Virus record (IMG/VR): IMGVR_UViG_3300020457_000028
Location: 1 to 37,623 of that record
Reading direction: 5' to 3' (one strand)
DNA from: a virus
Length of the DNA stretch: 37,623 bases
Positions 949 through 36,505 of this stretch are shown piece after piece; within the stretch, counting starts at the first letter, position 1; the number at the start of each line of letters is the position of its first letter. Below the pieces are notes generated by a model. That model saw only the letters and a program-made list of their open reading frames with translations. It ran no database searches and had not been told where the DNA came from. Made by a program: the position numbers and the translations under genes.

Positions 949-956
949 TATCTTTG
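949..956 (+). promoter_or_regulatory. Promoter -7 box and leader of the chaperonin operon
   Basis: TATCTTTG lies 30 bases before the groEL ATG. The leader from 963 to 986 is AATTAAATTTAATC followed by tandem TAATC units. The same leader type precedes six other genes in the window. No Shine-Dalgarno sequence is present. Confidence 0.65.
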
Positions 957-986: not shown

Positions 987-2564
987 ATGAATGAATCGGG
1001 AGGATATTCACCAAAGGATTTGCATTTTGGCAAAGACGGACAAAGCAAACTTATATCGGGAATAACGAAACTCTGTGATGCGGTGTCGAGTACGCTTGGT
1101 CCTATGGGTAATACCGTACTGATTGAATCGCCGCAGCATACCCACGGGATAACAGTAACTAAAGACGGGGTGACAGTAGCCAAGTCCATACAACTTCTTG
1201 ACCCTGTTGAGAACCTAGCCGTTCAGATAATGAGAGAGGCTGCCGACCGGACTGCTTCTGAGGCAGGGGATGGGACCACCACGGCGATCGTGATCACTCA
1301 GGGTATAGTAAGAGCAGGCCTTGAGAAAATAAAACCCCAGGATAATAAAACTGAGATACTTCGTGACATTGTAAAGGCCAGTGAGAGGGTGATAGAGAGA
1401 CTATCCAAACAAGCACAGCCTGTAAGTGATAAGAAATTATTAGACGTGGCGACAATCTCATCGAACAATGACCCTGAGGTAGGGGCCATAATTGCAGATA
1501 CTTACAAAGCGGTAGGTGAGCATGGGATCGTGACGGTTGAGAAAAGTCAAACCTCAGACACTACATTTGAGACCACCCATGGGATAAAAATAGACCGCGG
1601 GTACTCCTCACATCTGTTTGTAAACAACCAGAAAAAAGATGAGTGTATACTTGAGGACGTTCATATATTGGTATGTGACGGTGAGATAAACAACATACTC
1701 TCCATTGAGAGGGTGCTAAAACCGATCATTGCAGAGAATAAGAAATTATTAATAGTAGCGCCTTGTTCACAAAATGTTATCAACACTTTAGCTGCTAACG
1801 TAATGAAGAACAATCTAAAGCTATGTACCATAATTCCTCCCAATTTTGGATACAAGCAACATGAGCTGATGAATGACATAGCTCTGTCAGTCGGCGCTAC
1901 TTATTTTTCTGAGAAAACCGGTGATGACCTAAGCCTAATAAACTTTACTGATCTGGGTAAAGCAAAGAAAGTAATTGTAGGCGCTGACCAAACAATAATA
2001 TTAAAAGATGAGAACCATGTGGACCAAAGTGAGATAGACAAAAGAGTCGATGAGCTATGGGAGGCCCACAAAGGAGCGTCAAAAAAAGTAGATAAAGAGT
2101 TTATAGCATCCCGCATCGCTTCTCTCACCGGAGGTGTAGGTGTAATTAGAGTAGGTGGGACAACTGACTTAGAACAAAAAGAACTGATAGACAGAGTAGA
2201 TGACGCTGTGTGCGCCGTACGCTCAGCTCTGGTGGAGGGGATCCTCCCTGGGGGTGGAGTGGCGCTATACCAGATAGGGATTGAAATGATGAAATCGCAA
2301 AAAATCGCTGACGCGATTTTAGGGGAGGCAATTATTCAGCCGTTAGAACAGATATTCTGTAATGCAGGATTGCCTTATGGCAAGGATGATGTGACCATCG
2401 GTACGAACGTGAAAACGGGAGAGACCGGGGACATGATCAAAATGGGGATCATAGACCCCATGAAAGTAACCAAGACCGCGCTTCAAAATGCGGTCGCCGT
2501 TGCAAACACTATTTTATCAACCAACGCCATAGTGACTATGGCCCGAACTTATGAAACAAAATGA
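987..2564 (+). CDS. groEL: GroEL-type (group I) chaperonin, phage-encoded
   Basis: A 525-residue Hsp60 subunit, slightly shorter than the usual ~545. It shows the family signatures in order: the LGPMGN segment (about 38-42), TVTKDG with Asp60, the ATP loop GDGTTTA at 94-100 with Asp95, GGVGVIRVGG from about residue 382, an Asp near 405-406 matching the GroEL hydrolysis aspartate region, and EGILPGGG. Such proteins form seven-membered ATPase rings that fold encapsulated substrates with a GroES lid. The C-terminal GGM tail of cellular GroEL is absent and the apical domain is divergent. The gene heads an operon with groES but in the reverse of the normal bacterial order. The start follows a promoter and a typical leader. 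A phage copy probably folds virion proteins; the substrate is inference. Confidence 0.96.
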   Translation: MNESGGYSPKDLHFGKDGQSKLISGITKLCDAVSSTLGPMGNTVLIESPQHTHGITVTKDGVTVAKSIQLLDPVENLAVQIMREAADRTASEAGDGTTTAIVITQGIVRAGLEKIKPQDNKTEILRDIVKASERVIERLSKQAQPVSDKKLLDVATISSNNDPEVGAIIADTYKAVGEHGIVTVEKSQTSDTTFETTHGIKIDRGYSSHLFVNNQKKDECILEDVHILVCDGEINNILSIERVLKPIIAENKKLLIVAPCSQNVINTLAANVMKNNLKLCTIIPPNFGYKQHELMNDIALSVGATYFSEKTGDDLSLINFTDLGKAKKVIVGADQTIILKDENHVDQSEIDKRVDELWEAHKGASKKVDKEFIASRIASLTGGVGVIRVGGTTDLEQKELIDRVDDAVCAVRSALVEGILPGGGVALYQIGIEMMKSQKIADAILGEAIIQPLEQIFCNAGLPYGKDDVTIGTNVKTGETGDMIKMGIIDPMKVTKTALQNAVAVANTILSTNAIVTMARTYETK

Positions 2565-2788
2565 AAACACTAATTATTTTACTACTATTTAATTTTTCTG
2601 TACAGAAAACTTTCTGCGATGGATGGGACGATGGATACTGCCAAGGATGGGAGTATGTGAAAGGTCCTGAATTTTCAATATGCCCATTACCCCCTCTATG
2701 CCCTATGCCTAGAATACTTGAAGAAGAGTATACCGATGGATACAATAGAGGGTTTCTAAAAGGTAGAGAGGACGCACAGAATCAATGA
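2561..2788 (+). CDS. Small exported Cys-containing protein between groEL and groES
   Basis: A 75-residue protein linked by ATGA overlaps to groEL upstream and groES downstream, so translation of all three is probably coupled. Residues 1-18 look like a signal peptide or membrane anchor (Lys2, then a hydrophobic stretch). The mature part has a duplicated motif, DGW-DDGY-x2-GW (about 20-30) and YTDGY-x2-GF-x2-G (about 57-68), on either side of a Pro/Cys-rich centre with Cys41 and Cys47. Cys19 and Cys27 are also present. I do not recognise a family. Its position suggests a role tied to the chaperonin, yet an export signal would place it away from cytoplasmic GroEL. No function can be assigned. 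Confidence 0.75.
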   Translation: MKTLIILLLFNFSVQKTFCDGWDDGYCQGWEYVKGPEFSICPLPPLCPMPRILEEEYTDGYNRGFLKGREDAQNQ

Positions 2789-3042
2789 AACCTATTGGGA
2801 AAAATATAATTATAAAAACAATCGAGGAGGAAATTAAAACCTCCTCAGGGTTGTTACTTTCTTCTGAAGATGCGAGCCAGCTTCGCTACAAGAAAGGCCG
2901 GATTGTCGAGATAGGCACTGACGTGGTAGCAATTGAGAAAGACTGTGAGATATACTACGACAAAAGAGCCGGGTATACTATGCTTATCCATGATATTCCT
3001 TATACGATTATTCAAGAGAATGACGTTGTTGTTGTCTTATAG
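2785..3042 (+). CDS. groES: GroES-type co-chaperonin
   Basis: An 85-residue Cpn10, shorter than the ~97 of E. coli GroES. It shows the family layout: N-terminal strand MKPIGKNIIIK, a mobile-loop region about 15-32 with SGLLL (GGIVL in bacterial GroES) that docks on GroEL, KGRIVEIG (compare RGEVLAVG), and a C-terminal strand resembling the ESDILAIV end of GroES. The dome/roof loop seems shortened, as in some phage co-chaperonins such as T4 gp31-type lids, though the sequence is closer to GroES. It overlaps the upstream gene by ATGA. Its 3' end overlaps the convergent regulator gene by 35 bases. It should cap the GroEL ring encoded 220 bases upstream. Confidence 0.9.
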   Translation: MKPIGKNIIIKTIEEEIKTSSGLLLSSEDASQLRYKKGRIVEIGTDVVAIEKDCEIYYDKRAGYTMLIHDIPYTIIQENDVVVVL

Positions 3043-3457
3043 CATCATTACGCTTTACTGTAGCATCACGGTATAGCTTGAAGGTGTATGGGATTTTAGT
3101 CTTTTTAAAAAAAGGGTTATTGTCTTTGTGCTCGGGCATAAGACCCCCATTTAATATTTTATATACCCAGCCTATCATTCTGGTAGCTTTGTAGGTAAGT
3201 CCGTAAATAGCTTTGCGTGTATTGAGTTTAGGCTTGTAATTTTCTATCCAGCCGTCTTTTATCATTCCATGAAAACGAGCACTGTCCCACTGGAAAAGTT
3301 TTTGGTATTCAGTAAATTTTTCTAACGTAAAATACTCTTCGCTGTAAAGAAAAAATAAAAAGTCTAACTGTTCAGTTCCTACTCCATACTTTTCTTTGAC
3401 GAGTTTCCTTACTATTCTCCAATACTTCATATAGTCATTAGGCGGGCTTGATTTCAT
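3008..3457 (-). CDS. Winged-helix (MarR/PadR-like) DNA-binding regulator candidate
   Basis: The only convincing minus-strand gene in the window. The open frame reaches 3538, but the start at 3457 (149 residues) is preferred. It is preceded on the minus strand by ATAAAATTTAATCAA, the leader seen before other genes here, and by a TATCTTTG box at 3490-3483. The longer start would lie upstream of that promoter. Residues ~30-70 look like helices of a winged helix (FTLEKF, then SARFHGMIKDGWI). Residues ~71-95 look like a wing followed by a helix (RKAIYGLTYKATRMIG), as in MarR-like proteins. The 45-residue C-terminus is basic. The fold is my reading, not a search result. The likely site of action is the shared promoter region it faces. 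Confidence 0.6.
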   Translation of the reverse strand: MKSSPPNDYMKYWRIVRKLVKEKYGVGTEQLDFLFFLYSEEYFTLEKFTEYQKLFQWDSARFHGMIKDGWIENYKPKLNTRKAIYGLTYKATRMIGWVYKILNGGLMPEHKDNNPFFKKTKIPYTFKLYRDATVKRNDAIRQQQRHSLE

Positions 3458-3471
3458 TTGATTAAATTTTA

Positions 3472-3490
3472 TAACTTTGTAACAAAGATA
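3472..3490. promoter_or_regulatory. Overlapping divergent promoters around a 13-bp palindrome
   Basis: TAACTTTG (3472-3479, plus strand) and TATCTTTG (3490-3483, minus strand) face each other. Between them CTTTGTAACAAAG (3475-3487) is a perfect palindrome around one central base. Each box lies in the start region of the other transcript. The two units could therefore compete for polymerase, and a dimeric regulator could cover both. Confidence 0.6.
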
Positions 3491-3497
3491 TTTATTA

Positions 3498-3893
3498 ATG
3501 TGGAAAAAAATAATGCCGATGCAAAAAGATATTGCCAAAGAAATTAGAAATTACGTAGGGGCTCTTGGAATATTTATAGTGGTGATAGGGCTTCTATTCT
3601 TTTTGTCCTTTCATCAAATACCTACTGAAAACAAAGATTTGTTTGTTTCTATAGTAGGTGTTATTTCAGGATCTTTATCGGTAATTCTATTTACAATCAT
3701 TGGAAGGAATCCTAATGAAGTACAAGAATTGAAAAATACTAATGAGAAACTCAATGGTCAGGTACATCAGCTGATACGTCAGAAAGATGAACTAGAAGGG
3801 ATGCTCATTGAAATGCAAAAAGAAATCGTGGATAAGCTTTCAATAGCTGGCATATACTTTGAGCTAAAAAATAAAAAGAAACAAGAAAAATAA
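3498..3893 (+). CDS. Two-TM coiled-coil membrane protein, holin-like
   Basis: A 131-residue protein with two hydrophobic segments (about 19-37 and 48-68). A long charged coiled coil follows (about 74-118) and then a Lys-rich end. The layout resembles phage holin-like proteins, and the second segment ending in GRNPNE recalls the end of the holin-like protein at 15265. Alternatively it is a membrane protein acting early in infection, since it is paired with a regulator rather than with the endolysin. It starts 18 bases after a TAACTTTG box; an in-frame ATG at 3513 is an alternative start. Function not established. Confidence 0.65.
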   Translation: MWKKIMPMQKDIAKEIRNYVGALGIFIVVIGLLFFLSFHQIPTENKDLFVSIVGVISGSLSVILFTIIGRNPNEVQELKNTNEKLNGQVHQLIRQKDELEGMLIEMQKEIVDKLSIAGIYFELKNKKKQEK

Positions 3894-35281: not shown

Positions 35282-36505
35282 ATGAAATCTATATTTGTGC
35301 AGATAGCTAGCTATCGCGACCCCGAACTTATTCCCACTATAAAGGATCTAATTGAAACGGCTCATAAACCTGAGAATTTAAAAATATGCATTGCTCATCA
35401 ATATGCAGAGGAAGATGAGTGGGACCGCTTAGATCAGTTTGCTGATGACGGACGATTTACCGTCATACAAATTCCTTATCAAGACTCTCAAGGAACTTGT
35501 TGGGCGAGAAGTGAAATCCAAAGACATTATAATGGTGAAGATTATACTCTTCATTTAGATTCTCATCATCGTTTTGAAACTGGGTGGGACACGGAATGTA
35601 TAAACACGTTAACAAAACTACAAAAGCAGGGTTTTAAAAAACCATTACTGACCTCTTATTGTCCAGCTTATGAATTAAATACCACTAAGCCTAGAGACAC
35701 CACAGCTTATGGTATGCAAATTAATGTTTGGAATGATGGTGTAGCTTTATTTCATCCTTATGCAATGGGAAAAACTACGGCTCCAGTTCCTTCAAGATTT
35801 TACTCAGGGCATTTTGCATTTACATTAGGACAGTTTTGTAAGGAGGTTCCTCATGATCCTCTTATGTATTTTTATGGAGAAGAAATATCTATTTCAGTAA
35901 GAGCTTTTACTCATGGCTATGATTTATTTGCACCCCACAAACCTGTGGTTTGGCATGAATATACTAGAGAGGGAAGGTCAAAGCATTGGGATGATCATAG
36001 TAGATGGTTTGATAGAGACTCCGCTTCAAAAGCCCGGGCCCGTCAACTATTAGGTGTCAATGGAGAAGTTTGTTCACCTTGCAATAAAAACACTTTTAAA
36101 GAATATGGCCTTGGTGAGGTAAGAACATTAGAAGAGTATGAGCTGTATGCTGGGGTAAAGTTTGCAGATCAAACTATAACCCACAGGTGTAAACAAAACC
36201 TGCCTCCCCCTGGAATGGAAGGAGACTCTATCTACCATGAGTCAAAAGAATATCATATAAAATTAAACAAGCATGACTTCTTATATGAAGATACTGCATT
36301 TGCAGCGCTTGTAATGGAAGATAATAACGGGATGGTAGTTTACCACGACACAATAACAAAAGACGAAATAAACGCCCTTAAATCATCTAATGTGGCCTAT
36401 ATGAATATATCTAGAAGCATAGTTGGGGCTAAACCTCTTAGATATTTGATGTGGCCTTACAGTCAATCGCATGGATGGGGCGATAAAGTGGTTAGTTATT
36501 TTTAG
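35282..36505 (+). CDS. GlcNAc-transferase family glycosyltransferase
   Basis: A 407-residue enzyme. The N-terminal IFVQIASYRDPELIPTIKDLIETA is the hallmark of the GlcNAc transferase family that includes the Skp1 prolyl-hydroxyl GlcNAc transferase (GT60 type, Pfam GlcNAc). Further family elements are GTCWARSEIQ (71-80), the metal/nucleotide motif LHLDSHHRF with Asp93 and His95 (in place of DXD), a SGHFAFTLG segment, and YFYGEEISISVRAFTHGYDLFAP near 196-220. Residues ~300-407 form an extra C-terminal domain that I cannot name. Acceptor unknown: virion protein, phage or host glycan. It has its own promoter between two virion genes. Confidence 0.85.
   Translation: MKSIFVQIASYRDPELIPTIKDLIETAHKPENLKICIAHQYAEEDEWDRLDQFADDGRFTVIQIPYQDSQGTCWARSEIQRHYNGEDYTLHLDSHHRFETGWDTECINTLTKLQKQGFKKPLLTSYCPAYELNTTKPRDTTAYGMQINVWNDGVALFHPYAMGKTTAPVPSRFYSGHFAFTLGQFCKEVPHDPLMYFYGEEISISVRAFTHGYDLFAPHKPVVWHEYTREGRSKHWDDHSRWFDRDSASKARARQLLGVNGEVCSPCNKNTFKEYGLGEVRTLEEYELYAGVKFADQTITHRCKQNLPPPGMEGDSIYHESKEYHIKLNKHDFLYEDTAFAALVMEDNNGMVVYHDTITKDEINALKSSNVAYMNISRSIVGAKPLRYLMWPYSQSHGWGDKVVSYF

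Follow-up and report, generated by a model that had tools for sequence, protein, structure and literature searches.

A marine phage chaperonin operon with a variable cargo slot between groEL and groES, occupied by a gene for a predicted exported protein

Phage EL has a single chaperonin and phage T4 a single co-chaperonin, and neither phage is known to have the two genes linked around a cargo slot. EL gp146 (PMC7185714) and T4 gp31 (PMC6318259) are phage-encoded parts of a folding machine, as the two chaperonin gene products of the locus described here probably are. Both GroEL and GroES are encoded by Maribacter phage Panino (PMC11590407), and a survey reported at least one GroEL/GroES analogue for most viruses of the Southern Ocean (PMC8407431). 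Phage chaperonin pairs are thus already known; in the phage group described here, the operon contains a clearly variable site for cargo, with direct evidence of transfer between phages and with host-type promoter signals.

The window, by which we mean the whole stretch of DNA that was analysed (37,623 nucleotides), is a 37.6-kb IMG/VR virus record carrying terminase, portal, and virion genes. It represents a marine phage of Bacteroidota-type bacteria that encodes its own GroEL and GroES, like many of its relatives. A glycosyltransferase of the moron family phrog_24687 (35282–36505; E 5e-149) is found among its virion genes. The ORFs of the chaperonin locus match exactly the three genes placed at 987–3042 in a preliminary description, and the ATGA link that it reported at each of the two junctions was read in the sequence (Table 1). 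Since the end of groES lies within a convergent gene, the operon consists only of groEL, the gene that follows it (hereafter the middle gene), and groES. Genes placed like this convergent gene also occur in L087, L088, and L090, and the −4 left junction of the middle gene recurs in L083, L084, L090, and L010. TAnnTTTG is the consensus of the Bacteroidota −7 promoter element (PMC6847099). Within the 110 bp before groEL, it occurs in 62 of the 65 distinct upstream regions from the phage group, versus 4.8 expected from shuffling. Promoter-like TATCTTTG elements recur on the plus strand of the window at 323, 949, 5204, 25595, and 37335, and at least the first two of these closely precede gene starts (348 and 987, respectively).

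Table 1. Coordinates of the features of the chaperonin locus in the window.
Feature	Position	Strand	Description
Promoter element TATCTTTG	949..956	+	Bacteroidota −7 consensus TAnnTTTG, just upstream of groEL
groEL	987..2564	+	525 aa, no GGM tail; Pfam PF00118 (Cpn60) E 6e-46, phrog_5725 E 2e-131
groEL stop/middle-gene start ATGA overlap	2561..2564	+	Read in sequence
Middle gene	2561..2788	+	75 aa with four Cys, predicted exported; slot family F01; one unit of Flavobacteriales exported domain
Middle-gene stop/groES start ATGA overlap	2785..2788	+	Read in sequence
9-bp direct repeat ATGAAACCT	2785..2793	+	First nine bases of groES; flanks extra PAPS-like gene in L082 (alignment)
groES	2785..3042	+	85 aa, mobile-loop motif SSGLLL; Pfam PF00166 (Cpn10) E 4e-11, phrog_3188 E 2e-11
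Convergent gene, phrog_17028 (function unknown)	3008..3538	−	Overlaps groES 3' end

The GroEL of the window shares 36% identity with that of E. coli, and its match to PF00118 spans residues 31–518 of 525, making it a full-length member of the Cpn60 family. Its top TIGRFAM GroEL match (413.8 bits) is below the equivalog cutoff of 582 but above two subfamily cutoffs, and among PDB entries it best matches a reconstructed FCB-group chaperonin. The ATP-site residues T30, K51, D52, D87–T91, D398, G414–G416, and D495 are the same as in E. coli and nearly all invariant across 85 relatives, the exception being G415, replaced by A or S in 24 of them. On the apical surface for GroES and substrate, Y199, F204, and L237 are kept, while four residues are replaced relative to E. 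coli (Y203L, L234E, V263A, and V264A), replacements that predominate in the phage group. The residues corresponding to E. coli inter-ring K105, A109, E434, R452, and E461 are unconserved, and these positions vary within the phage group. As for GroES, its PF00166 match is over the cutoff, and its mobile loop keeps the hydrophobic tripeptide (SSGLLL vs. AGGIVL in E. coli). Since the ATP-site residues and the mobile-loop motif are kept, GroEL and GroES are likely to be a functional pair, i.e., a working folding machine. Together with the Pfam and PHROG matches, this bears out the earlier identification of a phage-encoded GroEL/GroES pair. In the source contig of one relative (L084; G010:C1:6951-8368), the groEL match is split over two open frames (303 and 256 aa), pointing to a frameshift or an error in sequencing.

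A scan of viral contigs yielded 165 confirmed relatives of the window GroEL, of which 80 were kept. In nearly all relatives whose contigs extend far enough, groES is downstream of groEL. The preliminary description had held that complete phage-encoded GroEL/GroES pairs are uncommon and had called the groEL–groES order reversed, but neither the pair nor the order proved unusual: this group of phages, with genomes of roughly 60 kb, commonly has linked pairs, and this order is the norm both in the group and in Elemovirus (Flavobacterium phages). The possibility that the order is an oddity of the window contig was rejected, since it is the same across the surveyed loci and in Elemovirus. The bacterial order, given there as groES then groEL, is seen in E. 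coli and in a Fluviicola genome where groES is upstream of groEL on the minus strand.

We then examined what lies between the two chaperonin genes in 85 groEL–groES loci. This slot has no gene in 20 loci and consists of a short gap with no called ORF of at least 30 aa in six others, while each remaining locus holds at least one slot gene, with 37 gene families in total. These include PhoH, a 2OG-Fe(II) oxygenase, a nucleotide-modification domain, recombination endonuclease VII, a PAPS reductase-like protein, a DNA methyltransferase, and small hydrophobic or membrane proteins. A phoH gene is inside the chaperonin operon in 11 of the 85 loci (L025, L030, L033–L038, L040, L042, and L054), at two places on the GroEL tree. 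On this tree, a quick one with some short rows and without a shuffled control, slot content changes about 40 times versus about three times for the middle gene. Other gene junctions in these phages vary too, not the slot alone.

Direct evidence of exchange comes from locus L082, which differs from the window at 12 of 434 bases in groEL and 1 of 258 in groES (97–99% identical) and has an identical middle gene across 233/233 bases. Its slot contains four cargo genes, three more than the window. The PAPS-like gene of L082 (phrog_424, E 1e-13) has 3 mismatches in 800 bp when compared to that of L002, with identity falling abruptly at groES, and the groES of L002 is 76.6% identical to that of the window. 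Such near-identity despite diverged groES genes indicates that slot genes move between phages. In L082, ATGAAACCT, i.e., the first nine bases of groES, occurs again just before the PAPS-like gene; since this repeat flanks the insert, gain or loss through it would yield the exact ATGA junction seen in the window. Most relatives are uncultivated IMG/VR contigs, which raises the question of whether the slot and its contents are metagenome assembly artefacts. This is extremely improbable, since arrangements recur across metagenomes (the PAPS-like genes of L002 and L082, for example, share one position, with frames intact) and an annotated cultured phage has the same groEL–groES order. Taken together, these findings show slot turnover and one horizontal transfer of cargo.

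Judging by its substitution pattern, the middle gene is a real gene under purifying selection, with a dN/dS of about 0.1–0.4 wherever calculable, although synonymous sites near saturation limit any single tidy figure. Its product has the 75 residues previously described, with four cysteines and a hydrophobic N terminus. The duplicated DGY-x2-G(W/F) motif that had been noted is present (DGYCQGW at 24–30 and DGYNRGF at 59–65), and the near-invariance of its G, Y, and W/F positions in 11–12 homologues argues against chance. A recent internal duplication was nevertheless rejected: each half corresponds to a different part of a single conserved unit, which is itself found in tandem in Fluviicola.

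Homologues of the middle protein are found in 11 viral loci, near-identical pairs being counted once, and in about 19 bacterial genomes. Eight of the viral loci are in the groEL–groES slot (the window, L082, L083, L084, L010/L085, L087, L088, and L090), with only groES visible in L087 whose contig begins just before the middle gene. A distant version (38% identical), in the near-identical pair L091/L092 that was counted once, sits directly after a Cpn10 gene. This pair is a distant relative of the phage group in which groES precedes the middle gene and no groEL is seen in the 6-kb contigs; a search for longer relatives found only these two contigs. The other two viral homologues (L089 and L093) have no cpn60 or cpn10 match in their records. 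The whole-record search for the groES family missed the L091/L092 gene, which a single-protein scan found over the cutoff, calling for caution on negatives for weak groES genes.

In bacteria, the domain was detected in 15 of 399 genomes from Flavobacteriales, 5 of 240 from the Fluviicola family, and 4 of 395 from the class (overlapping samples), with profile matches from E 1e-35 to 5e-5. The bacterial homologues look exported and exhibit the domain as a single unit, as tandem units (six in a Fluviicola homologue), or at the C terminus of low-complexity proteins. Its core, GW-x2-GY ... P-x-(C)P ... GY-x2-G with paired cysteines, is present in the middle protein, which on these sequence grounds belongs to an as yet unnamed Flavobacteriales exported domain family that phages share. 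No groE genes were found in the flanking sequence retrieved for the bacterial loci examined (at most about 1.5 kb on either side), and in five bacterial genomes that were checked the groES gene lies either on a different contig or well away from the homologue (e.g., 4.31 Mb vs. 0.63 Mb in a single chromosome). Of the bacterial single-domain relatives, the closest to the middle gene (L117, 4629–5270; genome G087, contig C52) is ~0.7 kb from a gene matching the defence protein PD-T4-5 (PADLOC E 4e-18) and, weakly, Abi_2. A search of 50,697 named-phage records with three family members gave no significant match, and Pfam, NCBIfam, PHROGs, and PADLOC offered no family for the middle protein; its matches to Alvin2107_sulfur and to phrogs were rejected as weak, below cutoff, and resting on short motif stretches.

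We next analysed the cysteines of 37 distinct copies of the domain. C19 and C47 occur together in 32 of them and are jointly missing from five, and no copy has just one of the two. C27 and C41 occur together in ten copies, nine with all four cysteines plus L100 in which the outer pair is lost, and other copies carry a shifted inner pair. When signal-peptide cysteines are left out, their number is even in 36 of the 37 copies. Since the cysteines co-vary as two nested pairs, two disulfides are predicted, C19–C47 and C27–C41, and the protein would fold outside the cytoplasm, away from GroEL. An AlphaFold model of modest quality (pLDDT 80, pTM 0.62), with helices at 2–34 and 60–73 and a Pro-rich loop between them, is compatible with these nested disulfides; it has no fold match in the PDB or among viral folds. 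Weighing against export, the hydrophobic stretch is moderate in the longest slot member of the family.

These properties bear on the earlier proposal that the middle gene modulates the chaperonin or its client. A protein working with the chaperonin might serve as its third subunit, modulate it, or be a client held by GroEL until export, its position setting stoichiometry. The ATGA overlaps on both sides of the gene would fit such a role, as would its rather stable history on the GroEL tree, with only three changes, and the fact that 9 of 11 phage loci adjoin groES, including the distant one with the opposite order. We nevertheless find it unlikely. An accessory protein would be expected to show constant association with groE, yet the middle gene is present in only 7 of the 85 surveyed loci, 37 families are swapped through the slot, and close relatives have unrelated genes or none there. 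The host homologues checked are unlinked to groE, two viral records contain the middle gene but no chaperonin gene that could be found, and predicted export and paired cysteines place the protein outside the cytoplasm. The preliminary description had named homologues lying mostly apart from chaperonin genes as evidence against its proposal; this holds for the bacterial homologues and not for those of phages. The proposal is therefore disfavoured yet kept, because the middle gene stays near groES more than a freely moving passenger would: the eight slot loci and L091/L092 are not scattered, so some link to groES is possible. A version in which the chaperonin, or tight co-translation, serves a small exported disulfide protein during infection, with the other slot genes likewise clients or partners, also appears improbable. 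If true, it would make the slot a client-swapping site rather than a neutral insertion site.

The explanation that we favour, with a probability of roughly 0.7, is a chaperonin operon with an exchangeable passenger, the middle protein being exported, disulfide-bonded, and most likely acting at the host envelope. The operon would be transcribed from the Bacteroidota-type promoter just upstream of groEL, and GroEL and GroES would provide the phage with a folding machine of its own. The middle gene would be a passenger ("moron") in a variable cargo slot, where genes would come and go by recombination between related phages while the start–stop overlaps would keep groES translated after the cargo, putatively by translational coupling. 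The exported middle protein would be a short helical hairpin with two nested disulfides outside the cytoplasm, where it would probably act on the envelope, perhaps excluding superinfection or modifying the surface, the former being our leading guess. A narrower form of this passenger explanation holds that there is no groE link at all and that the middle protein is a host-derived envelope protein directed against the host or rivals, specifically a superinfection exclusion factor, the host domain being a surface or envelope repeat protein. Exported-looking host homologues (tandem and C-terminal), purifying selection on the middle gene, and the strong hydrophobic stretches in 9 of the 37 slot families, at least two of which look lipoprotein-like by eye, are in keeping with it, whereas searches of Pfam, PHROGs, NCBIfam, and PADLOC matched the middle protein to no known exclusion protein. 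We regard this narrower form as possible but tentative.

The slot is a natural system for asking what a phage gains from genes under a chaperonin promoter, and the analysis defines an exported, predicted disulfide-paired domain without a name that phages and Flavobacteriales have in common. The chromosomal proteins that share the C-x-GW-x2-GY ... P-x-CP ... Y-x2-GY-x2-G domain, such as a Fluviicola multi-repeat protein (L086; JARWZO010000010) and a 94-aa single-domain protein (L096), differ from the middle gene in being unlinked to groE and often tandem, with tandem units lacking the inner cysteine pair. The nearest annotated relative of the locus, Podoviridae sp. ctfjg026 (MW202828), has groEL and chaperonin 10 genes in the same order and about 59% identical, but no middle gene. 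The 60-kb Flavobacterium phage Elemovirus vB_FspP_elemoC_14-1A (NC_062743) likewise has overlapping groEL and groES genes in that order followed by a convergent gene; however, its GroEL is only 37% identical to that of the window, and its slot is empty. In the moron sites of tailed phages, non-homologous small genes are swapped at one site between conserved genes. Unlike these usual sites, the slot in the window lies inside a chaperonin operon and is joined to its neighbours by start–stop overlaps.
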